NCBI GenBank assembly: GCA_025453925.1
Contig: JALOPK010000052.1
Coordinates: 1 to 13,973 of the forward strand
From: Candidatus Eiseniibacteriota bacterium
GTDB lineage: Bacteria; JAFGKV01
Direction: 5' to 3'
DNA: 13,973 nucleotides
Shown in pieces: positions 1 to 12,894 of this stretch. Position numbers and translations under genes: made by a program. The notes beneath the pieces are model-generated. The model was given only the letters and a program-made list of their open reading frames with translations, did not search any database and had not been told where the DNA came from. Position 1 is the stretch's first letter, and each line of letters opens with the position of its first letter.

Positions 1-2182
1 CCATGCGGAAATAGCCGCGCACCAAATGGCGTAGGCGCTCGATGCCTGCATCACCGACCAGAAGGGATGGGGTGAACTTCATATTCAGCAGGGTGCCCCC
101 GGTTTTGATGTGATCCATTTTCGCCGCCGACCGGAAGACTGCGGTGGGGCCACGCCGGTCGGCGCCCTGTACCGGGGAGATGCCCTCTGAGAGAGGGGCG
201 CCGGCCCTCCGGCCGTCCGGAGTCGCGCCCGTGATCGCCCCGAAGTAGACATGACAGGTGGTGGGGAGCATTTCCACCCGGTACCGTCCTCCTTTGGACG
301 TGGGGCGGCCATCCACGGCGGCGAGCAGCGTATCGAATACCCGCACCATGATCCGGTCGGCGTCGTCGTCATCGTTGCCGTACTTCGGCGCGCGGTGGAT
401 CATGCGCTGGCGGAGGGGCTCATCCTCCCGCCAATCGGCGTCGAGCGCGTCCACCAGAGCGCCCAGCGTCAGCTGTCCCCGGTCGAAGGTCGCTTGTTTG
501 AGCGCCGCCAAGGAGTCGGTGACGCTGCCAATGCCGACCATCTGGATATAGGTGTTGTTGTACCGGGCACCGCCGGCGTTGTAGTCGCGACCGTTGGCGA
601 TGCAGTCATCGGTGAGCACCGAGAGGAACGGCGCCGGCATCTCAGTCGCGTACATGCGTTCGATGATCTGGTTGCCCGTGATCTTGAGGTCGAGAAAGTG
701 CCTCAGCTGTGTCTGGTAGGCCGTGAAAACCTCATCGAAGGTGCGGAAGCTCTCGGCCGAGCCGGTGTGGGGCCCCAACTGCGTCCCCGTCCGGGGATCG
801 TTCCCATCGTGGAGCGTGATCTCCAGCACTTTCGCCAGGTTGAAGTAGCCGGTCAGGATGTAGGCTTCCTTGCCGAAGGCTCCTACCTCCACACACCCGC
901 TGCACCCGCCCGCGCGGGCGTCCTCAAGGCTCTTCCCCTGGCGAAGCTGTTCGGCAACGACGGCGTCGGCGTTGAACACCGAGGGGAACCCGAAGCCTCG
1001 GCGGATCACGCTCAATGCGTGGTCGAGGAACCTGTCCGGTGTTACCCGGGAGATCTGGACATTCGAGGAGGGCTGCAGCAGATGCATGTCCTCGATGATC
1101 TCGAGCAGAAGGTGGGAGACCTCGTTGCTCCCGTCGGCGCCGTCAGCGAGGAGACCGCCCAGGTTGAGGTTGGCGAAATCGGTGTACGTGCCGCTCTCCG
1201 CCGCGGTCACGCCGACCTTGGGAGGCGCGGGGTGGTTGTTGAATTTGATGAAGAAGCACTCCAGCAGCTCCCGGGCGCGGACCTCGTCCAGCGTGCCGTC
1301 GGCAACGCCGGAGCGATAGAACGGGAGAAGGTGCTGGTCGAGGTGGCCGGGGGAAAACGCATCCCAGCCGTTGAGCTCGGTAATCACCCCAAGATGGCAG
1401 AACCAGTAGTACTGGAGGGCTTCGTGGAAGTCGCGGGGTGCGTGAGCGGGCACGTGCCTGCAGACGGCTGCGATCCGGCCAAGCTCTGCGGCGCGGTGCG
1501 GCTCACCCTCAGCACGAGCCATCTCTTCGGCCAGAGCGGCATGGCGTGCGGCCAACGTGATCAGGGCCTCACATGCGATGTGCATGGCCCGTAGTTCTTC
1601 CCGCTTGTTGAATGCGTCGGAATCCTCGGCGAAGTCCAGGACGGCAATCGCTGAGGCGATGTCGGCCTGGAAGTCGCGCATGCCCCGATGGTAGATCTTG
1701 TCATCAAGTACGGTGTGGCCGGGTGCTCTCTGCTCCATGAACTCGGTGAAGATCCCCGCAGCGTACGAGTCATGCCATTCCGGGGCGAGTTGCGGGAAAA
1801 TGCGATCGCGCAGGGAGCGGCCACGCCAGTAGGGGATGATCTCCTCCTCGTACACGCGTACTGCGTCCTCATCGACCGCGTAGCTCGTCTTGAGTCGCGA
1901 GTCGAGTATCCGAAGGTCTTCCACGCTGTGGCAGGTGAGTTCCGGGAAGGTCGGCACCGCCTTCGGCCGCGGGCCCCTTTCGCCGACGATCAGCTCCCCA
2001 TCGCCGATCCAGACGCTCTTGTGCCGGCACAGATGTTGGAAGCACAGGGCGCGCATGGCGGCTACCGAATGCTTGCCTGCCTCCTGCCGATGGAAAGACG
2101 TCACGAGCAGTGCGCGTTCCACTGAAATGGAGGGCCGGGCCTCGAGGCTCCGCTGTCTCAGCATCAAGGTGCGGTCGTTCAT
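1..2182 (-). CDS. hypD: Glycyl radical enzyme, trans-4-hydroxy-L-proline dehydratase (HypD) type, C-terminus cut by window edge
   Basis: Reading the minus strand from ATG at 2182 gives an uninterrupted frame of 727 codons to the left edge. HypD enzymes use a glycyl/thiyl radical to dehydrate trans-4-hydroxy-L-proline to pyrroline-5-carboxylate, which ProC reduces to proline; they are cytosolic and oxygen-sensitive. Visible motifs are GCSGCVEVGAFGKEAY with the thiyl Cys430 and the base Glu432, GWDAFSPG (Asp274), ESGTYTDF (Ser330, Asp335, Phe336), LTGY (Tyr446) and LPTTCH (Thr641). From memory, the Clostridioides difficile HypD residues are Asp278, Ser334, Asp339, Phe340, Cys434, Glu436, Tyr450 and Thr645, so all match with the same offset of four. 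The N-terminal region is also colinear. Family length is about 790 residues, so about 60 are missing, including the glycyl radical loop. The start overlaps the activase stop as ATGA. No proC is visible. The symbol here is the hydroxyproline enzyme, not hydrogenase maturation HypD. Other substrates within the family cannot be fully excluded. Confidence 0.93.
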   Translation of the reverse strand, partial: MNDRTLMLRQRSLEARPSISVERALLVTSFHRQEAGKHSVAAMRALCFQHLCRHKSVWIGDGELIVGERGPRPKAVPTFPELTCHSVEDLRILDSRLKTSYAVDEDAVRVYEEEIIPYWRGRSLRDRIFPQLAPEWHDSYAAGIFTEFMEQRAPGHTVLDDKIYHRGMRDFQADIASAIAVLDFAEDSDAFNKREELRAMHIACEALITLAARHAALAEEMARAEGEPHRAAELGRIAAVCRHVPAHAPRDFHEALQYYWFCHLGVITELNGWDAFSPGHLDQHLLPFYRSGVADGTLDEVRARELLECFFIKFNNHPAPPKVGVTAAESGTYTDFANLNLGGLLADGADGSNEVSHLLLEIIEDMHLLQPSSNVQISRVTPDRFLDHALSVIRRGFGFPSVFNADAVVAEQLRQGKSLEDARAGGCSGCVEVGAFGKEAYILTGYFNLAKVLEITLHDGNDPRTGTQLGPHTGSAESFRTFDEVFTAYQTQLRHFLDLKITGNQIIERMYATEMPAPFLSVLTDDCIANGRDYNAGGARYNNTYIQMVGIGSVTDSLAALKQATFDRGQLTLGALVDALDADWREDEPLRQRMIHRAPKYGNDDDDADRIMVRVFDTLLAAVDGRPTSKGGRYRVEMLPTTCHVYFGAITGATPDGRRAGAPLSEGISPVQGADRRGPTAVFRSAAKMDHIKTGGTLLNMKFTPSLLVGDAGIERLRHLVRGYFRM

Positions 2183-3084
2183 CGGAACACCCCAGTCGAA
2201 ACCAGCATGCCGGCCGCGCGGAACCGTGCGACGTGGCGGCGCATCTGATCCGACGATGGCGTGGGCGTGTCGGAGAGGGGGTATGCTCTGCCCAGTCGAG
2301 CATGTTTGCCGACGCCCGCCCGGTGATAGGGGAGGAGCGTGACGCGACGTGCGCCGGGGAGGGCGGAAGCCAGCTCCGCCATGGAATCCATCTCGTCCTC
2401 GGAGTCATTGACGCCCGGAATCACCGGAACACGGAGCCACACCGCGTCGTGCATCTCCGCCAGGGACCTCAAGTTCGACACGATGTTCTCGTTGGAGGCG
2501 CCCGTGTAATAATCGTGGCGCGCGGAGTTCATCAGCTTGAGGTCGAAGAGAATCAGATCGGCATGGGAGGCCACGCGTTGCAGGGTCTCCCATGGACCAT
2601 GTCCGCAGGTGTCGACGGCGGTGTGGATGCCGTGTGAGCGGCATGATTGGAGGATCTCATTCGCGAACTCCGCCTGGAGGAGCGGTTCGCCTCCCGACAC
2701 CGTCACGCCTCCGCCGCTCTCCTCGTAGAAGACCCGATCGGCCAGAACTTCCGACAGGACCTGATCGACGTGCATTGGATGTCCAATGATCTCCCGGGCC
2801 CCGGTCGGGCACACCTGGGCACATACGCCGCAGAGCGCGCACTCGCTCTTCGCTGACCGCCGCAGGTCCACCGGGGAGAGGTGAACCGGGCAGGCTTCGG
2901 TGCAGACGCCGCATCCTATGCAGCGGTTCTCCACGACCACGGCCTGTGGGCGCGACTCCTGGCCTTCAGGGTTGTGGCACCAGACGCAGCGGAGTGAGCA
3001 CCCCTTGAGGAAGACCGTCGTGCGAATCCCGGGCCCATCATGGACCGAGAACCTCTGGATATTGAAAACGGTGCCGGTGCGCAT
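2179..3084 (-). CDS. hypE: Glycyl radical enzyme activating enzyme (radical SAM)
   Basis: This 301-residue protein is a radical SAM activase that would use S-adenosylmethionine and a reduced [4Fe-4S] cluster to install the glycyl radical on the adjacent dehydratase. The radical SAM motif CX3CX2C is at Cys29, Cys33 and Cys36, after the family-typical stretch FSVHDGPGIRTTVFLKGC. An inserted two-cluster ferredoxin domain follows, with CxxCxxCxxxCP at Cys55-Cys65 and again at Cys82-Cys92, then TVSGGEPL at 128-135. This layout and length match activases of the HypD/CutC/glycerol dehydratase group rather than the short pyruvate formate-lyase activase. The ATG at 3084 is chosen because homology begins there (RTGTVFNIQ) and it shares one base with the upstream stop (TGATG), implying translational coupling. 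An upstream in-frame extension to 3249 would overlap the regulator gene and has no family-like sequence. Pairing with HypD is inferred from the ATGA overlap with that gene. Confidence 0.95.
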   Translation of the reverse strand: MRTGTVFNIQRFSVHDGPGIRTTVFLKGCSLRCVWCHNPEGQESRPQAVVVENRCIGCGVCTEACPVHLSPVDLRRSAKSECALCGVCAQVCPTGAREIIGHPMHVDQVLSEVLADRVFYEESGGGVTVSGGEPLLQAEFANEILQSCRSHGIHTAVDTCGHGPWETLQRVASHADLILFDLKLMNSARHDYYTGASNENIVSNLRSLAEMHDAVWLRVPVIPGVNDSEDEMDSMAELASALPGARRVTLLPYHRAGVGKHARLGRAYPLSDTPTPSSDQMRRHVARFRAAGMLVSTGVFR

Positions 3085-3752
3085 CACACCGACCGCTCGC
3101 GAGTCGCCGCATAGTATCGGCGAACGAATGGCTCCTGCACGGCGTACGACCAATGGATGTCCCGGACGTAGTCGGCCGCAGCGCGGCGGTCCTCCGCGGC
3201 GATTCTCATGACGATGGCATCGTGCTCGTCGACGGACGCCATCTCCCATTCTCGAACGTACCCCTCTCGCCTCGGGAAATCGTAGAGACGGGCCTTCAGG
3301 GTGCGCACTATCCGCACCAGCGCAGCATTGGCCGAAAGGACCAGGTAGACATCATGGAAATCAAGGTTGCGGGCGTAGTAGCGATTGAAGTCATCGGTAG
3401 CCAACGCAGCGCGCATCTCCTCGTTCAACACGCGCATGCGAGTTGCCTCCTCGGAGCCGAGACGCGCGCCGGCTCCGAGAATGACCGCACTCTCCAGAGC
3501 ACCGATGATCTCGTAGATGTGACGTATGTCATCGAGGGAGAGCTCACTCACGACGATTCCCCGCCGGGGGTGGATGGTGACGAATCCCTCGTGGGCGAGC
3601 TGCAGCAGCGCTTCACGCAAGGGCGTGCGGCTTACGCCAAGGGAGGCGGCCATGGAGTCAACGTGGACGGCGGCGCCGGGCCTCAGGGCTCCATCGCCCA
3701 ACCGCTCCTTGAGCAGCTCGTACGCTTGTTCCCGCAGGGATTTGAGGTTCAC
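3084..3752 (-). CDS. GntR-family transcriptional regulator, FadR subfamily with FCD domain
   Basis: The 222-residue product has an N-terminal winged helix-turn-helix (about residues 1-67, recognition segment SRTPLREALLQLAHEGFV) followed by an all-helical FCD ligand-binding domain (about 72-212). Likely metal-ligand histidines of FCD are His133, His177 and His200. The usual aspartate four residues before the first histidine appears to be Asn129, with Asp131 close by. The start is GTG at 3752. It is the only start codon I find in frame downstream of the predicted promoter, and the next upstream ATG (3857) lies upstream of the -35 box. The ribosome-binding site is weak (GGTGGG, three bases before the start). 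The gene leads the operon and couples to the activase, so it probably senses hydroxyproline or a related carboxylate and controls this operon. FCD regulators commonly bind carboxylic acids; the ligand here is inference. Confidence 0.93.
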   Translation of the reverse strand: MNLKSLREQAYELLKERLGDGALRPGAAVHVDSMAASLGVSRTPLREALLQLAHEGFVTIHPRRGIVVSELSLDDIRHIYEIIGALESAVILGAGARLGSEEATRMRVLNEEMRAALATDDFNRYYARNLDFHDVYLVLSANAALVRIVRTLKARLYDFPRREGYVREWEMASVDEHDAIVMRIAAEDRRAAADYVRDIHWSYAVQEPFVRRYYAATRERSV

Positions 3753-3821
3753 GGCCCACCGTTTCGCACGATCGAGAAGGCGGAGTTGTCGCCCGGTCTT
3801 GTACTCAAGATCAGCTGAAGT

Positions 3822-6304: not shown

Positions 6305-8338
6305 GTGGCGAAGAGCATGCCTGAGCTGGAGCGCCTCCTCGCAGCGTTGACCGCGGCGTCCAAGGTGACGAAGTACTATCCTCCCGGTCACCCGCAGATT
6401 GAGGAGACCCTTGGGAAGGTGCTGTCGCTCATTGCCGCCTTGGTTTCAAAGGGGAGCCCTTTGACCCTGGCCGTGCAGGACGACGGCCTCTATGTGGGGC
6501 CTTCCCGCGTCCTCCGCTTCGAGCCCACCGAAATGCTATTCAGGAATCTCAGGGATCTCGGGGTGAAGGAACTCGCCATCAATCCTGGGGTCACGGAGGA
6601 CGAACTGCTGCAATTCGTCGAGCTCATCGGGCGTGATCCCAAGAAGATCTGGGAAGAGGGGGGTCTCCCTCGCACCCTGCGTCAGCGGCGTATCACGCAT
6701 GTCGGGATCACGACCAGCGATTTCGCAGCCGCCGAACGGCAGGCCTCCATGGACAGCCTGCGCGCCGTCAACCCTGAGGAGCGCGCGGAAACGATCACTC
6801 GTGCCAGGGACTGGTTTGCGGGCAGTACCCCGCCACCTCCTGATAGCGAAATCTTGCGGATCGTGGCCCTGATTCATGATTCGGGGGGTATCAGAGACAT
6901 CCTGGATTCCCCCGGCCCCGCAGGCCACAGTGCCCACACCCTGAGCGTCCTGATTCGCCTGTGGGGTGCGATGGTGAGGTCAGGCCTGGAGGTCTCACCG
7001 GTGGAGGGGGCCTTAGCCGCCGACCTGTTTGCCACTGATCCGAGGACGCTCCTTGAGGTCGCGGGCACCGATCAAAGCGGCACTCCCCACCTGCACAGGC
7101 TGGTGGAACGGCTCGATCCGCGGGCCGTCGGCGATCTGATCGCAGCCCGTGTGGGCAATCCGACGGGTGACGCCGCAGCGTGGATCCCCGTGATCGATGC
7201 CCTTGTCAGGGCCTCCGGGCCTAGACGGGCCATGCTCTACAGGGTGCTACAGGGGGTCAGATCGTCACAGGGTGCGGCCGATGCCGTGGCCCTGTTCGAA
7301 GAGGAATTGTCCTCAGGCGCTCGAGAGGAGAGCGCCTTTCTCTCGCTCCTGCAGGGGTCCCGCAGTCAGACGGACCATTCTCCCGCGTCCTGGAGCGGGA
7401 GATGGGGGAGCGGCGTGTTGGTGCGCAGGGCCACCGGAGTCCTGGAGCGGGTAGGCCTGAGCGACGTCCAGCGTGTCGGCTGGCTCTCCAGTGAACTGGA
7501 CAGGCTGATCGAGGCACGGGATGCCGAGGGGGTCATCGAGGTGCTTGAGGTGGCTCGCGACCGCCGTTCGACCAAGGAGACCGGTCAGGATCAACCTCCG
7601 GTGGTCTCGCCCGGTGCGCGAGTCGGGTTTCCCGCCTTCCTCATGGCGACCGAGCTCGCCCCGCGTGCCCGGACGATCCAGGCCCTGGTCGTCGTCGACC
7701 GCTCGTGGCGTGAGATTCTCGGCCGGCTTCTTGACTCCGCAACCCCGGTGGAGTTCAGGCAGCTGGTCGGTGAGCTCGAGGGTGCGGGAATCGTGGTGAG
7801 GGATCTGGTTCTGGACCTCATGCGGAGCGAGAACTCCGATGACATCGCGCGGGGCATTCGCCTCGGCGGCACCCTCGGCGGTGCAGACGAGCTGCCCATT
7901 CTCCTCGCGTTTCTCGACCACGGGAACCCTGCTATCCGCATCGAAGCCATCAGCACGCTCGCCCGGGTGGCCCCGCACGATCTGACGGTGAGACTGCCTG
8001 GTCTCCTGCGTGATCTCAACCCACTCGTGTCGGTCAAAGCGCTGGATGTCGCAGGGGAGTTGCCGGATGTGGTGAGCGCCTTGACCGCTGCGGTGCGCGA
8101 CGGCCTTCTTCGGGTCTTGTCCGAGGACATGGCCCTGGCAGTTGTCGGCTTCGTTTCGCGGTGCGGCACTCCTGAGCAGATCATCGAATTCGCGGATGCG
8201 GCAACGCCCCGACTCATCGGCAAGCCACTCCCGCCCGCCGTCCGCGAGGCGGTCAAGGTTCTCGGACCGATCGAGAAGCCACGGGGAATGCGCCGGCTGT
8301 TCTCCCCCCGCAAAGGAGATGGCTGCGGCGATGAGTGA
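6305..8338 (+). CDS. YPPGHP-module protein with C-terminal HEAT-like repeats
   Basis: The 677-residue soluble protein has no signal peptide or membrane segment. Residues about 5-125 form a module with YYPPGHP at 24-30, then a stretch with PLTLAVQDDGLYVG and a conserved-looking PGVTEDELLQFVELI. I know this module from bacterial proteins that carry HEAT repeats or HD domains, and it recurs at the N-terminus of the next gene. The middle is helical and unassigned. From about residue 500 to 660 there are helical-pair repeats such as LPILLAFLDHGNPAIRIEA and LPGLLRDLNPLVSVKALDV, typical of HEAT repeats, which scaffold protein-protein contacts. No catalytic motif is visible. It overlaps the next gene by eight bases, implying coupled synthesis and a possible complex. 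It opens a probable five-gene operon. The function is unknown; a scaffold or signalling adaptor is inference. Confidence 0.85.
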   Translation: MAKSMPELERLLAALTAASKVTKYYPPGHPQIEETLGKVLSLIAALVSKGSPLTLAVQDDGLYVGPSRVLRFEPTEMLFRNLRDLGVKELAINPGVTEDELLQFVELIGRDPKKIWEEGGLPRTLRQRRITHVGITTSDFAAAERQASMDSLRAVNPEERAETITRARDWFAGSTPPPPDSEILRIVALIHDSGGIRDILDSPGPAGHSAHTLSVLIRLWGAMVRSGLEVSPVEGALAADLFATDPRTLLEVAGTDQSGTPHLHRLVERLDPRAVGDLIAARVGNPTGDAAAWIPVIDALVRASGPRRAMLYRVLQGVRSSQGAADAVALFEEELSSGAREESAFLSLLQGSRSQTDHSPASWSGRWGSGVLVRRATGVLERVGLSDVQRVGWLSSELDRLIEARDAEGVIEVLEVARDRRSTKETGQDQPPVVSPGARVGFPAFLMATELAPRARTIQALVVVDRSWREILGRLLDSATPVEFRQLVGELEGAGIVVRDLVLDLMRSENSDDIARGIRLGGTLGGADELPILLAFLDHGNPAIRIEAISTLARVAPHDLTVRLPGLLRDLNPLVSVKALDVAGELPDVVSALTAAVRDGLLRVLSEDMALAVVGFVSRCGTPEQIIEFADAATPRLIGKPLPPAVREAVKVLGPIEKPRGMRRLFSPRKGDGCGDE

Positions 8339-9572
8339 CCGGCTGACCGAACTGCTCACGCGGCTCAACTCCGTGGTCAAGAAACTCCGCCTGTATCCAC
8401 CGGAGCACACGGTGTGTGCCGCTGCCATCGATCTGGCCATGGAATCCATTCGTGCGGTAACGCCCGACGAGCCGGCGCTCACCATCGGGTTCGCGGGTCT
8501 GACCGCGGTGCACAAGGGCGTTCCCCTGGTGGATCTCGGCACGCGGGCCAAGGCTCTCCTTGATGCACTGACCGGCGCCGGGATCCGATGGGTGCGGATC
8601 GAACAAGGGGTTTCGCGGGAGGAGGTGGTGCGCTTCCTCCTCTGGATCATGCGGCAGGATGAGCGGTCCACCCCGGGCACACCGGAAGAGGGCTGGCATC
8701 CCGTGAACCTTCACGTCGGCCTTGTGGAGCCCAGTGCGGGCACGAGCGCCGATCTCGAAATCCGTGTGGGAGAAGTACTCCAGACCATGGTTGTGTCCCT
8801 CCGTGCCGGCGGCAGCGCGCTTCCCCTCGCGGAGCTGTGGGACTTCGTGTGTCGCGTCAGCCCGCCGAGCGGGCAATCCGATCCGTTGCTGGGAATGCTC
8901 GAGCTCGCCATGGCACAGAGGGAATACATTCTGCGCCGGGCCGTGCTCACGTCTGCGCTGTCCATAGAACTCAGTCGGAGACTGAATCTGGACTCCGCGC
9001 TCTCCCCGCAGCTTGGTCTCGCCGGGCTCCTTGCGGATGTTGCGCTCTTCAAGGTTGACGGGGATTCGCTGAGCTGTCGCCACGGCGGTCCCCAGCAGAT
9101 CCCCAGATGGTCCGATCATCCATCCGACGGCGCCCGCATTCTGGCCTCCGCGGGAGCGCCCTCATTGACGGTCGTTGTAGCGGCGGAGCACCATTGGGGA
9201 TTGCGCTATGCCTCTCCCGCCCGGCATCCCGCATCGACTTTGGTTGGGATGGCGGATACGCTGACGGGCCAACTCCTAGGCGGGTTCGGCGCTGCGTCCC
9301 GCCGATTGGACCTCGCCCTCATCGCGCTGGTGACGGAAGGCTCCTGCTACCCCGCCGAACTCAGCCGCGCCATGTTGGGCATGAGTGGCCTCTTCGTGAA
9401 GGGCGCCCGTGTGCGCCTCTCCAACCGCCAGAAAGGAGAAATCGTCACGCCGAACCCATCTGACCCATTGCGTCCGGAGGTGCTGATGGATGACGAGGTG
9501 GAAGGGATGAAGCTGGTGGATCTATCCGCAGCGGGCGAACGTCTGGCGCTTGCCGCCGTACTGGAGGAATAG
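8331..9572 (+). CDS. YPPEH-module protein with degenerate HD-GYP domain
   Basis: The 413-residue protein repeats the module of the preceding gene at residues 1-110 (LYPPEH at 21-26, then ALTIGFAGL and GVSREEVVRFLLWI). The remainder (about 190-413) follows the HD-GYP plan. LAGLLADVAL at 230-239 stands where a functional enzyme has a His-Asp pair and Lys (LLHDIGK); the His is Ala235. DHPSDGARIL at 262-271, AEHHWGLRY at 285-293 and MADTL at 307-311 match later HD-GYP segments, but the GYP triplet is not intact. The C-terminal part (VKGARVRLSNRQKGEIV, then DPLRPEV) matches the extension often found after HD-GYP domains. HD-GYP enzymes hydrolyse cyclic di-GMP; this copy looks catalytically dead, perhaps a sensor or binding partner. 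The ATG at 8331 is 12 bases after GGAG; the ATG at 8319 abuts that site and is unlikely. Confidence 0.85.
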   Translation: MSDRLTELLTRLNSVVKKLRLYPPEHTVCAAAIDLAMESIRAVTPDEPALTIGFAGLTAVHKGVPLVDLGTRAKALLDALTGAGIRWVRIEQGVSREEVVRFLLWIMRQDERSTPGTPEEGWHPVNLHVGLVEPSAGTSADLEIRVGEVLQTMVVSLRAGGSALPLAELWDFVCRVSPPSGQSDPLLGMLELAMAQREYILRRAVLTSALSIELSRRLNLDSALSPQLGLAGLLADVALFKVDGDSLSCRHGGPQQIPRWSDHPSDGARILASAGAPSLTVVVAAEHHWGLRYASPARHPASTLVGMADTLTGQLLGGFGAASRRLDLALIALVTEGSCYPAELSRAMLGMSGLFVKGARVRLSNRQKGEIVTPNPSDPLRPEVLMDDEVEGMKLVDLSAAGERLALAAVLEE

Positions 9573-9578
9573 CCGCCC

Positions 9579-11018
9579 ATGCCGCATGTTCACCTCATTG
9601 GGATCGGCGGCAGCGGTATGAGCGGGCTCGCCGGCCTTTTCGTCCAGGCGGGATGGAGCGTCACAGGGTGCGACAAGGCAGCCGTACACCCGCCAGCGGC
9701 CGACACCTTGGCCGCGCTCGGCATTCATCCGTTTCTGGGCTACTCTCCCGATCATCTTGATCCGTCTCCGGATCTGGTGGTGGTGGGGAACGTCGTCAGG
9801 GCGACCAACGAAGAAGATCGCGAGGCGCTGACCCGCGGCATGCCGCGCACACATATGGCCAAGGCCCTGTGGGACCACTTCCTCTCCCGTCGTACCAGTG
9901 TCGTGGTGGCGGGGACCCACGGGAAGACGACATCCACCTCGATGCTGGCGTACCTGCTGCAACGGGGCGGATATGACCCAGGTTTCTTCGTCGGGGGAGT
10001 GGTGCGGGGCCTTGGGACGGGCTACCAACTGGGTTCAGGGGCGTACTTCGTGACCGAGGGGGACGAGTATGACTGCGCGTGGTTCGACAAGACACCCAAG
10101 TTTCTCCACTACCGGCCTCGGTATCTCCTGGTCACCAATGTCGAGTATGATCACGCCGACATCTACGCGGACCTCGACGCGATTCGCGAGGTGTTCCGGC
10201 GGCTCATCGCTTCCCTTCCCCACGATGGCGTTCTGGTCTACTGCGCCGAATCCCCCATCCTCACGGAATTGGCCCGGGAGGCACCCTGCACGGTCGTCTC
10301 CTACGCCGTGGATTCACCCATGCCCGCGACCTGGACGGCCTCCAACATCCGGGTTGAGGCTGGCGGCACGGCTTTCACCCTTACCCGCGGCGTCGAGCCC
10401 GCGGGAGAGTTCCTGATCAGGTTGCCGGGGCGGCACAACGTCCTCAATGCCACGGGAGTCATTGCCTTGTGGCGAGCTATGGGATTGAGCTGGTCGGGCC
10501 TCGCCGACCGGATCTCGGAGTTTCAGGGCGCTGCGCGGCGCATGCAAGTTCTGGCCCGGGGCGATGCCGTGGTACTTGATGATTTCGCCCACCACCCCAC
10601 GGAGGTCAGGGCGACCCTCAGCGCCGCGCGCCAATGGTGGCCGGGGAGGAAAATGTGGGCGGTGTTCGAGCCCAAGACCCAGACCAGCAGGAGGCAGGTA
10701 CTCCAGGCAGACCTCGCCGAGGCGCTTTCCCTGGCGGACGAAGTCGTGGTGATCGAACCGCACGATCTTGAGTCTATCCCCTTGGACCATAGGATGGATG
10801 TGGCTCGCCTGGCCGATGATGTGCGCGCCCGGGGGGTTCGCACAACGGTCGCCGCTACCCAGGAGGAGACCGCGGCCCTGCTCGTGGAGGAACTGACCAG
10901 GGAGACCATCGTCGTGCTCATGAGCGCGGGGAGTCTCGGCCATGTCGCCGATGCCGTGACGTCTCTCGTCGCCACGAAGGGATGGGGCTCGGCTCCGGAT
11001 TCGACGCGCTCGGGGTAG
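9579..11018 (+). CDS. mpl: UDP-N-acetylmuramate:L-alanyl-gamma-D-glutamyl-meso-diaminopimelate ligase (Mpl)
   Basis: The 479-residue cytosolic ligase joins recycled murein tripeptide to UDP-MurNAc using ATP, returning peptidoglycan turnover products to synthesis. It has the Mur-ligase layout: a Rossmann start with IGIGGSGMSGLA (7-18), the P-loop AGTHGKTT (111-118), the central-domain signature EGDEYDCAWFDK (160-171), EYDHADIY (189-196), PGRHNVLN (283-290) and DDFAHHPTE (334-342). The signature with CAWFDK...KFLHYRP and the FEPKTQTS stretch fit Mpl rather than its relative MurC, whose equivalent is an EADESD-type motif. Length agrees with Mpl (about 450-460) plus a short C-terminal tail. GGAGG at 9563-9567 lies inside the end of the preceding gene, 11 bases before the ATG, and the next gene begins four bases after the stop, so it is an internal operon member. 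Mpl implies diaminopimelate-type murein and recycling. Confidence 0.94.
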   Translation: MPHVHLIGIGGSGMSGLAGLFVQAGWSVTGCDKAAVHPPAADTLAALGIHPFLGYSPDHLDPSPDLVVVGNVVRATNEEDREALTRGMPRTHMAKALWDHFLSRRTSVVVAGTHGKTTSTSMLAYLLQRGGYDPGFFVGGVVRGLGTGYQLGSGAYFVTEGDEYDCAWFDKTPKFLHYRPRYLLVTNVEYDHADIYADLDAIREVFRRLIASLPHDGVLVYCAESPILTELAREAPCTVVSYAVDSPMPATWTASNIRVEAGGTAFTLTRGVEPAGEFLIRLPGRHNVLNATGVIALWRAMGLSWSGLADRISEFQGAARRMQVLARGDAVVLDDFAHHPTEVRATLSAARQWWPGRKMWAVFEPKTQTSRRQVLQADLAEALSLADEVVVIEPHDLESIPLDHRMDVARLADDVRARGVRTTVAATQEETAALLVEELTRETIVVLMSAGSLGHVADAVTSLVATKGWGSAPDSTRSG

Positions 11019-11022
11019 GATC

Positions 11023-12894
11023 GTGAGGCGGCGCACCTTCGGGAACATCGCCTCCCTCGCACTCACCTTTGTCGTGCTGGGGGTCATCGAGGTGTCGCTG
11101 AGAACCGCCGGTGTCCCGCAGCGGGGTACGCTGTTCGTCCGACACGGCAAAGAGATACGCCTGGCCCCAGGCGCCGCGGCCCGCTACTTCGCGGCCCGCT
11201 CTCCCCTGGTGCCGGAGACTCACTCGGAGGCGTTCTCGGATCCAAAGCCCGCGGGGACGGTTCGGGTGATCTGCCTGGGCGGTTCGACCATGGCCGGGTA
11301 TCCCTTCACCTACAACGGCACGCTCCCGTCCCTGCTGGCGGACCGGCTCACTCATCTTTTTCCCGACACGTCGTTCGAAGTGCTGAACTTCGCTGTTTCC
11401 GCGGTGGGTTCATTCACCGTCCTGGACATGTGCCGACACGCGCTCCGATACCAGCCCGACATTGTGGTGATCTACACCGGTCACAACGAGTTCTACGGCG
11501 CACTGGGCGTCGGCAGCGCCATGCGCAGCCTCGCCCCGCGGTGGCTCACGCTCCTGCATTTGCGCATGCAGGATGTGGCATGCTACCGGTGGTGCTGGGA
11601 TACCCTCGGGAGGGTACGGCGCCCTGGGAGGACCTCATCTGCCGGTGAGACACTCATGGCCCAGATGGTGGGGGACCCCTGTATCCCAACGGGGAGTCGA
11701 GCGTACCACCGAGCATTGAGCACTTTCTGCGCGAACATCCGCGCCGCGTGCCGGAGTTGCGTGGCCGGCGGGGTTCCGGTGGTCGTGTGCGAGCTGGTGG
11801 CCAACCTCCGCGATCAGCCGCCCTTCAGCGTGTGCCCCCCCGCGGGCTCATCCGCGCAAACCGCCTCCTTGCACGCACCCTCGGCGCAGGAGGTTTTTCG
11901 CCAGGCCCGGGCCGCGGAGGCGAAAGGAGAGATCGCCCAGGCCCGCTTTCTGTACGAGCGTGCAAGAGACGGCGATCAGTGCCGTTTCCGCGCCCCCGGT
12001 GAGTTCAACGATTCCCTCCGCACCATCGTGCCGCGCGAGGGAGGCCTTCTTGTCCCGCTGGTGGAGAGGTTTCAGGCGGCGTCGCTCTTTTCCGCCCCTG
12101 GATACGATCTGTTCATCGATCACCTCCACCCGAATCTCGAAGGATACCTGTCCGTGGCCACCGCGCTCACGGAGACCATCCGGGACGGCGGGTTGCTGGT
12201 TCCCCCCGATCGGTGGCCGTCGGATCGCGAACTGCCGGCCGGCGCATACAGGGAGCTTGCTCTGGTGACGCAGCTTGAACACGCCATCGCCGTTGACAAG
12301 GTTCGACGGCTCATGGCCCATTGGCCCTTCTCGCCCGATCAGCCCGCACCCATCCATATGTTTGACGACTCCATTGCCGCTCTTGCCCGGCGGTATCATG
12401 ACGAACGCCTATCCTGGAGTGACGTGCACCTCAAGGCGGCGGACTACCTGATCCGACGCGGGGCGTTCACGGCCGCCCTCCGGGAGACCCAGGCGGTGCT
12501 GAAGCAGGCGGTCGGGTTCTGGCCGGCATGGCTGAAGGCGGGCGACGTCTATCTGGCGCAGGGGCGGCCCCTGGATGCGGCGGACGCCTACCGCACGGCG
12601 TCGCGGCTCGATGGCGGGCAGGGCCACAGCATGGCGAAACTCGGCAGCGCCCTGCTGGCGGCCCGAAAACCGGAAGAGGCCATACCCGTGCTGGTGGGGG
12701 CTCGGCGTGACGAGGCTGGGCTTTCCGAGACAGACAGATGCCGCGCGGGCTACATGCTCGGTCTTGCCTATGTAGAGCTGGGGAGGATTGCGGACGCGGA
12801 GAGGATGGAGGCAGAGCTGAGACGCGAGGGTCCCGGGGCCGTCCTGGCCGAGCGTCTCGAGAACAGAATCCGTGGCCGGTCGGTGCCTCGGTGA
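11023..12894 (+). CDS. SGNH/GDSL-type hydrolase with C-terminal TPR repeats, probably membrane-anchored
   Basis: The 623-residue protein starts with a basic N-terminus and one hydrophobic segment (about 8-25, IASLALTFVVLGVIEVSL), either an anchor or an uncleaved signal. SGNH blocks follow: CLGGSTMAGYP with catalytic Ser88, NFAVSAVGS (122-130), YTGHNEFYG with Asn155 (151-159), and DHLHPNLEGY with Asp366 and His369 (366-375). Between blocks III and V is a helical insert (about 288-332) resembling a single TPR, a feature of this hydrolase subfamily. Residues about 455-610 hold TPR-like pairs such as AGDVYLAQGRPLDAADAY and KLGSALLAARKPEEAIPV. SGNH enzymes cleave or transfer acyl esters; envelope polysaccharide or lipid is a reasonable target, but the substrate is not readable. 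GTG at 11023 is the chosen start, with a purine-rich GGGTAGGA just upstream overlapping the mpl stop. The gene ends in a GTGA overlap with a possible longer start of the next frame. Confidence 0.85.
   Translation: MRRRTFGNIASLALTFVVLGVIEVSLRTAGVPQRGTLFVRHGKEIRLAPGAAARYFAARSPLVPETHSEAFSDPKPAGTVRVICLGGSTMAGYPFTYNGTLPSLLADRLTHLFPDTSFEVLNFAVSAVGSFTVLDMCRHALRYQPDIVVIYTGHNEFYGALGVGSAMRSLAPRWLTLLHLRMQDVACYRWCWDTLGRVRRPGRTSSAGETLMAQMVGDPCIPTGSRAYHRALSTFCANIRAACRSCVAGGVPVVVCELVANLRDQPPFSVCPPAGSSAQTASLHAPSAQEVFRQARAAEAKGEIAQARFLYERARDGDQCRFRAPGEFNDSLRTIVPREGGLLVPLVERFQAASLFSAPGYDLFIDHLHPNLEGYLSVATALTETIRDGGLLVPPDRWPSDRELPAGAYRELALVTQLEHAIAVDKVRRLMAHWPFSPDQPAPIHMFDDSIAALARRYHDERLSWSDVHLKAADYLIRRGAFTAALRETQAVLKQAVGFWPAWLKAGDVYLAQGRPLDAADAYRTASRLDGGQGHSMAKLGSALLAARKPEEAIPVLVGARRDEAGLSETDRCRAGYMLGLAYVELGRIADAERMEAELRREGPGAVLAERLENRIRGRSVPR

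Follow-up and report, generated by a model that had tools for sequence, protein, structure and literature searches.

The HEAT–HD gene pair

The window analyzed here is a stretch of 13,973 nucleotides from contig JALOPK010000052.1 of a Fermentibacterota genome (assembly GCA_025453925.1). Its two-gene core, the domains encoded therein and the flanking genes are as follows:

5-3111, minus strand: trans-4-hydroxy-L-proline dehydratase, cut by the contig end (NF043068, above the curated cut-off)
~3084-3770, minus strand: GntR-type regulator beside the dehydratase
6305-8338, plus strand: HEAT-side gene (P0001), 677 aa; N-terminal YPxxHP module, then a HEAT-repeat solenoid
6317-6724, plus strand: YPxxHP module of the HEAT protein (module HMM; YYPPGHP at 6374-6394)
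7895-8104, plus strand: best-scoring HEAT repeats of P0001 (PF13646, E 9e-6, slightly below the curated cut-off)
8331-8338, plus strand: 8-base overlap of the HEAT and HD genes, ATGAGTGA
8331-9572, plus strand: HD-side gene (P0002), 413 aa, ATG start; YPxxHP module, degenerate HD-GYP domain and C-terminal small beta barrel
8331-8741, plus strand: YPxxHP module of the HD protein (module HMM; YPPEH at 8394-8408)
8880-9386, plus strand: degenerate HD-GYP domain of P0002, lacking the equivalents of PmGH H189, H221 and K225 and the GYP motif
9387-9563, plus strand: C-terminal SH3/Tudor-like beta barrel, common to HD partners (VIA-align Z ~5 to Spindlin/Tudor barrels; low-confidence fold)
9579-11018, plus strand: Mpl/MurC-like ligase directly downstream of the pair, which it adjoins in 3/3 Fermentibacterota genomes; outside the two-gene core
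11023-12894, plus strand: TPR-repeat protein with a fused GDSL/SGNH-type hydrolase domain, conserved 3' of the ligase in three genomes

The HEAT-side gene begins with a GTG start codon preceded by GGAGG, and its end overlaps the beginning of the HD-side gene. The eight-base overlap described in an earlier reading of this DNA, made from the sequence alone (henceforth the sequence-only reading), is confirmed, and an overlap of the same length recurs in both orthologous pairs (L023 8882/8889 and L024 7489/7482, giving 3/3 pairs). The Fermentibacterota set considered throughout comprises the window genome and two relatives, the Fermentibacteria MAGs L007 and L008. The orthologs of P0001 in these two genomes are 53% and 36% identical to it, and those of P0002 are only 60% and 40% identical to their counterpart, with the length of the overlap still held at eight bases. 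Each of the three genomes also has a second, paralogous HEAT–HD pair, in which both proteins likewise carry the module.

A homologous N-terminal module on both partners

The N-terminal ~137 residues of the two proteins are homologous, as the sequence-only reading had proposed from their YYPPGHP and LYPPEH motifs. BLASTP aligns the N-termini of P0001 and P0002 directly (24% identity over 139 columns; E 3e-4). A profile–profile comparison of HEAT-side (n=55) with HD-side (n=56) modules, all of them taken from outside the phylum, gives a probability of 99.8% (E 3e-29) over 134 columns; as controls, a reversed profile and the HD domain reached probabilities of 1.3% and 1.6%, respectively. The Y, P and H of the YPxxH motif are invariant in 12/12 Fermentibacterota modules.

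The AlphaFold models, each built from three sequences per protein (window, L007 and L008), place the YPxxH motif of both modules between two helices, followed by a beta hairpin or three-strand sheet, a helix, a strand, a helix and a strand. For the HEAT protein, the order of elements reads a-a-b-b-b-a-b-a-(a)-b; in the HD protein, blocks of residues 1-110 are modeled with a pLDDT of 67-91. Rather than adopting unrelated folds, the two modules share the same predicted order of secondary-structure elements, a comparison that concerns the order of these elements and not a superposition of coordinates. The module was matched by no sequence model from Pfam, NCBIfam or the PDB, and a search of the PDB with a profile of the module alone returned nothing better than chance-level matches. 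VIA-align likewise recovered no clear fold for it, which is no proof of absence.

The HEAT partner

The HEAT repeats claimed for the upstream protein are borne out by the PF13646 match and by the AlphaFold model of P0001, in which a helical solenoid takes up residues ~157-653, with pLDDT values mostly >84 between residues 430 and 630. Among the upstream partners more generally, Pfam detects HEAT_2 (PF13646) in 48/51. These HEAT repeats constitute the likeness of the upstream partners to the PBS-lyase/NblB-type HEAT proteins, every score being far under the curated cut-offs; to our knowledge, these families lack the YPxxHP module.

The HD-GYP partner and the lineage-specific loss of its catalytic residues

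Searched alone against Pfam, P0002 returned no match. The HD-GYP-like domain attributed to it is nevertheless recovered through its relatives: PF13487 matches one P0002 ortholog at 1e-3 and the paralogs with E-values down to 6e-13; Pfam detects HD_5 in 46/50 downstream partners; and the HD region of these partners resembles an NCBIfam family of HD-GYP c-di-GMP phosphodiesterases, with scores below its cut-off. The HD region of P0002 is poorly modeled by AlphaFold (pLDDT 28-49) because the prediction used three sequences only. The small barrel that follows it is conserved at the C-terminus in the alignment of HD partners.

When P0002 is mapped onto PmGH by motif order, it retains the equivalents of D222, H250, H276, H277 and D305, and lacks a complete set of metal ligands and the catalytic lysine: H189, H221 and K225 are all missing. 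In PmGH, the substitutions H189A, H221A and K225A each abolish activity (PMC4159591). The second Fermentibacterota pair has YD in place of the HD dyad, the first histidine of which is lost in both Fermentibacterota HD copies. Given the loss of this histidine and of the other catalytic residues, the Fermentibacterota HD subunit is predicted to be non-catalytic.

Thus, the description of the HD-GYP protein as dead stands for P0002 and fails for most of its relatives. In most families, the alignment shows an HD partner with canonical HD-GYP motifs; the metal ligands (H, D, H, H, H, D) are complete in 51/67 HD partners, and 48 of those 51 also keep GYP. The 16 without the full ligand set comprise six from Fermentibacterota, one cut by a contig end and others of scattered occurrence; with a single exception, they still adjoin a HEAT-side gene. 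Since these scattered losses of ligands are accompanied by retention of the HEAT neighbor, the alignment suggests more than one loss of catalysis, with the HEAT–HD pairing persisting. Judged by these residues, the dead HD state is lineage-specific, and the general system has an HD-GYP domain with intact ligands.

The genes that follow the window pair allow a different reading of this degenerate copy, namely that the pair moved in Fermentibacterota to a role in cell-wall turnover together with the Mpl-like ligase, acting there and not via c-di-GMP. The ligase and the GDSL–TPR protein come after the first pair in 3/3 genomes, each of which has a separate murC elsewhere, and a non-catalytic HD domain, as predicted for the window pair, is in line with this reading. 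However, it draws on three genomes of one family, and the second Fermentibacterota pair is equally degenerate, yet lacks both the ligase and the GDSL–TPR neighbors. Hence, we regard a cell-wall role as improbable. The ligase itself (9579-11018, plus strand) is a second MurC-like copy that scores barely above the murC cut-off, and is probably Mpl.

Distribution, gene order and ancestry of the pair

When 290 genomes from a sample spanning the bacteria were searched with a profile made from the 12 Fermentibacterota modules, the module was found in 72/290. After this first search, open reading frames were called in 92 regions and the profile was iterated. The two genes, which the sequence-only reading expected to be neighbors in related genomes, co-occur in 49 of the 72 module-bearing genomes as 62 adjacent same-strand pairs from ~44 families, and they are coupled in all three Fermentibacterota and in 46 other genomes. 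The order is HEAT first and HD second in 62/62 pairs. At the junctions, 55/62 pairs lie within 30 bp and an overlap is possible in 46/62, both being generous counts because the start codon was picked for its closeness to a 4-base overlap.

Viewed from the HD side, 62/67 HD-bearing module proteins directly follow a HEAT-side gene. As for the other five, those of L097 and L114 are near contig ends, those of L127 and L146 are in unusually long frames, and that of L060 has a module-bearing frame ~1 kb upstream. A follow-up sample around one genome yielded more pairs; in one of these the pair is interrupted by a contig break, and in another the HD gene is shortened. In L155 and L156, which belong to one family of this follow-up sample, the HD partner is present with no detectable adjacent HEAT partner, and several module-bearing HEAT proteins also stand alone; hence, the pairing is not obligatory.

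The modules of the two partners fall into separate groups: the nearest neighbor of an HD-side module is another HD-side module in 61/62 cases, and that of a HEAT-side module another HEAT-side module in 58/61. In a maximum-likelihood tree, a quick one of 137 columns with many forks left open, there are 12 and 10 label changes as against ~49 in shuffles. This implies that the duplication of the module is older than the spread of the pair and that the two genes were inherited together. In keeping with this, the distances among HEAT-side modules and among HD-side modules are correlated across pairs (Spearman 0.49; shuffle maximum 0.125), a correlation that represents co-inheritance and is by itself no proof of contact between the proteins.

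Several of these observations can also be accommodated by the main rival to a heteromeric complex, wherein the module is a tandem-duplicated ligand-sensing or homodimerization domain, and the partners share a pathway without contact, their coupling being a matter of co-regulation only. The separation of the two module lineages in the tree is compatible with this alternative, and a shared module would equally permit homodimers or the sensing of one ligand. Moreover, the module is also seen on unpaired HEAT, GGDEF-AAA and histidine-kinase proteins, in the manner of sensory input domains. To elaborate, most lone module proteins carry HEAT repeats, with others displaying the architectures GGDEF-AAA-module-HEAT, module-PAS-HisKA-HATPase or DUF4388-module; such domain partners are company typical of a signaling input or docking domain. 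Nevertheless, coupling in a fixed order in ~44 families, when taken together with co-inheritance, is more than loose co-regulation usually preserves, and we consider this alternative rather unlikely.

The flanks of 56 pairs contain no recurrent family apart from a few further HEAT proteins and do not indicate a client; given this diversity of flanking genes, the pair is self-contained. The same neighborhoods bear on whether it might represent an anti-phage defense or CRISPR-like system, combining an HD nuclease with a HEAT scaffold. Such a system is brought to mind by weak PADLOC matches in relatives to Cas10, to Cas3 HD models and to HEAT-ARM_XIII (E 1e-3 to 6e-9). These matches, however, span only the shared HD fold or the HEAT repeats; neither P0001 nor P0002 has a PADLOC match; the neighbors are devoid of any recurrent defense family; and the two genes show correlated inheritance. 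Accordingly, we dropped the defense reading as highly improbable.

Proposed function and comparison with known systems

We think it somewhat probable, at slightly better than an even chance, that the pair forms a cytosolic heteromeric complex of the c-di-GMP phosphodiesterase type, assembled via the shared module and with a HEAT subunit that docks a client, and that in Fermentibacterota its HD subunit serves as a non-catalytic receptor. Here, the physical heteromerization, the ligand, the client and the direction of signaling are what we infer. Briefly, we advance the following mechanism: (i) the YPxxHP modules, with the predicted order a-a-b-b-b-a-b-a-b, would most likely pair the two proteins and may bind a regulatory ligand as well; (ii) the HEAT solenoid would dock the client or position the complex; (iii) the HD-GYP subunit would adjust or sense a cyclic dinucleotide and, going by its conserved residues, probably hydrolyzes c-di-GMP in most lineages; (iv) in Fermentibacterota, the HD subunit would be a non-catalytic binding partner, the state of which might be read out by the HEAT subunit. 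GGDEF proteins are encoded by 40/40 genomes tested, inclusive of the three Fermentibacterota, with 11 in the window genome. Thus, the c-di-GMP substrate is plausibly present, a consistency check that counts as weak evidence because GGDEF genes are common in bacteria.

More generally, and more tentatively, at a little short of an even chance, we propose that YPxxHP is a previously undescribed signaling domain, heterodimerizing and possibly ligand-binding. On the same footing, the HEAT–HD-GYP pair would be an ancient, uncharacterized and widespread class of two-protein c-di-GMP complex, with the HEAT scaffold as a dedicated partner, in which catalysis was lost several times and the pairing kept.

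HD-GYP phosphodiesterases constitute a major branch of second-messenger signaling in bacteria, the regulation of which is known for few partners. The downstream proteins share their domain with the HD-GYP c-di-GMP phosphodiesterases such as RpfG and PmGH (PF13487), usually with intact HD, HH, GYP and D ligands. However, known HD-GYP members have REC, GAF, PAS or globin domains as their input, whereas in the HD partners an unnamed module takes this place; unlike in those members, the HD gene is also coupled to that of a HEAT protein with the same module. RpfC/RpfG is a two-gene c-di-GMP module in which the HD-GYP enzyme and its controlling protein are encoded side by side. The HEAT–HD pair resembles it in that an HD-GYP enzyme lies next to a dedicated partner, and differs in lacking a histidine kinase or receiver domain and in having one homologous N-terminal domain on both partners.

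The top Foldseek match of P0002 is Bd1817 of Bdellovibrio, a weak one (E 0.74), the search being uninformative given the poorly modeled HD region. Bd1817 is an inactive, degenerate HD-GYP protein (PMC4159591). Its sequence matches the HD-partner profile only in the HD part and the preceding linker, and the two proteins differ in their lesions: in Bd1817, which binds an iron centre of the binuclear type, it is the GYP tyrosine that is missing, and in P0002 the histidine of the HD dyad. The parts of the system are known folds, with the module and the pairing being as yet unnamed. We found no papers on the HEAT–HD pair in the open-licence literature, which agrees with the statement of the sequence-only reading that it knew of no characterized system with such an arrangement.

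If these proposals are true, the HEAT–HD pair, present in about one-sixth of the sampled genomes, would offer the HD-GYP class a testable general partner. Likewise, its active and dead versions would provide a natural series for studying the role of the HD-GYP fold after the loss of catalysis.

Additional architectures and neighbors

L143 (1183-5877) and L137 (2482-6093) each encode a single protein that combines GGDEF and AAA ATPase domains with the YPxxHP module and HEAT repeats; in these, a diguanylate cyclase is joined to the module. One genome has two HEAT–HD pairs in tandem (L074, 4378-10792). In L156, the HD gene is closely preceded by a short module-like remnant. In the family of L151, L152, L154, L155, L156 and L157, the opposite strand near the HD gene encodes, convergently to it, a third and small protein (194-237 aa) with a relationship to the HEAT portion of upstream partners. 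Finally, at the other end of the window, the trans-4-hydroxy-L-proline dehydratase is also adjoined by a glycyl-radical activase.
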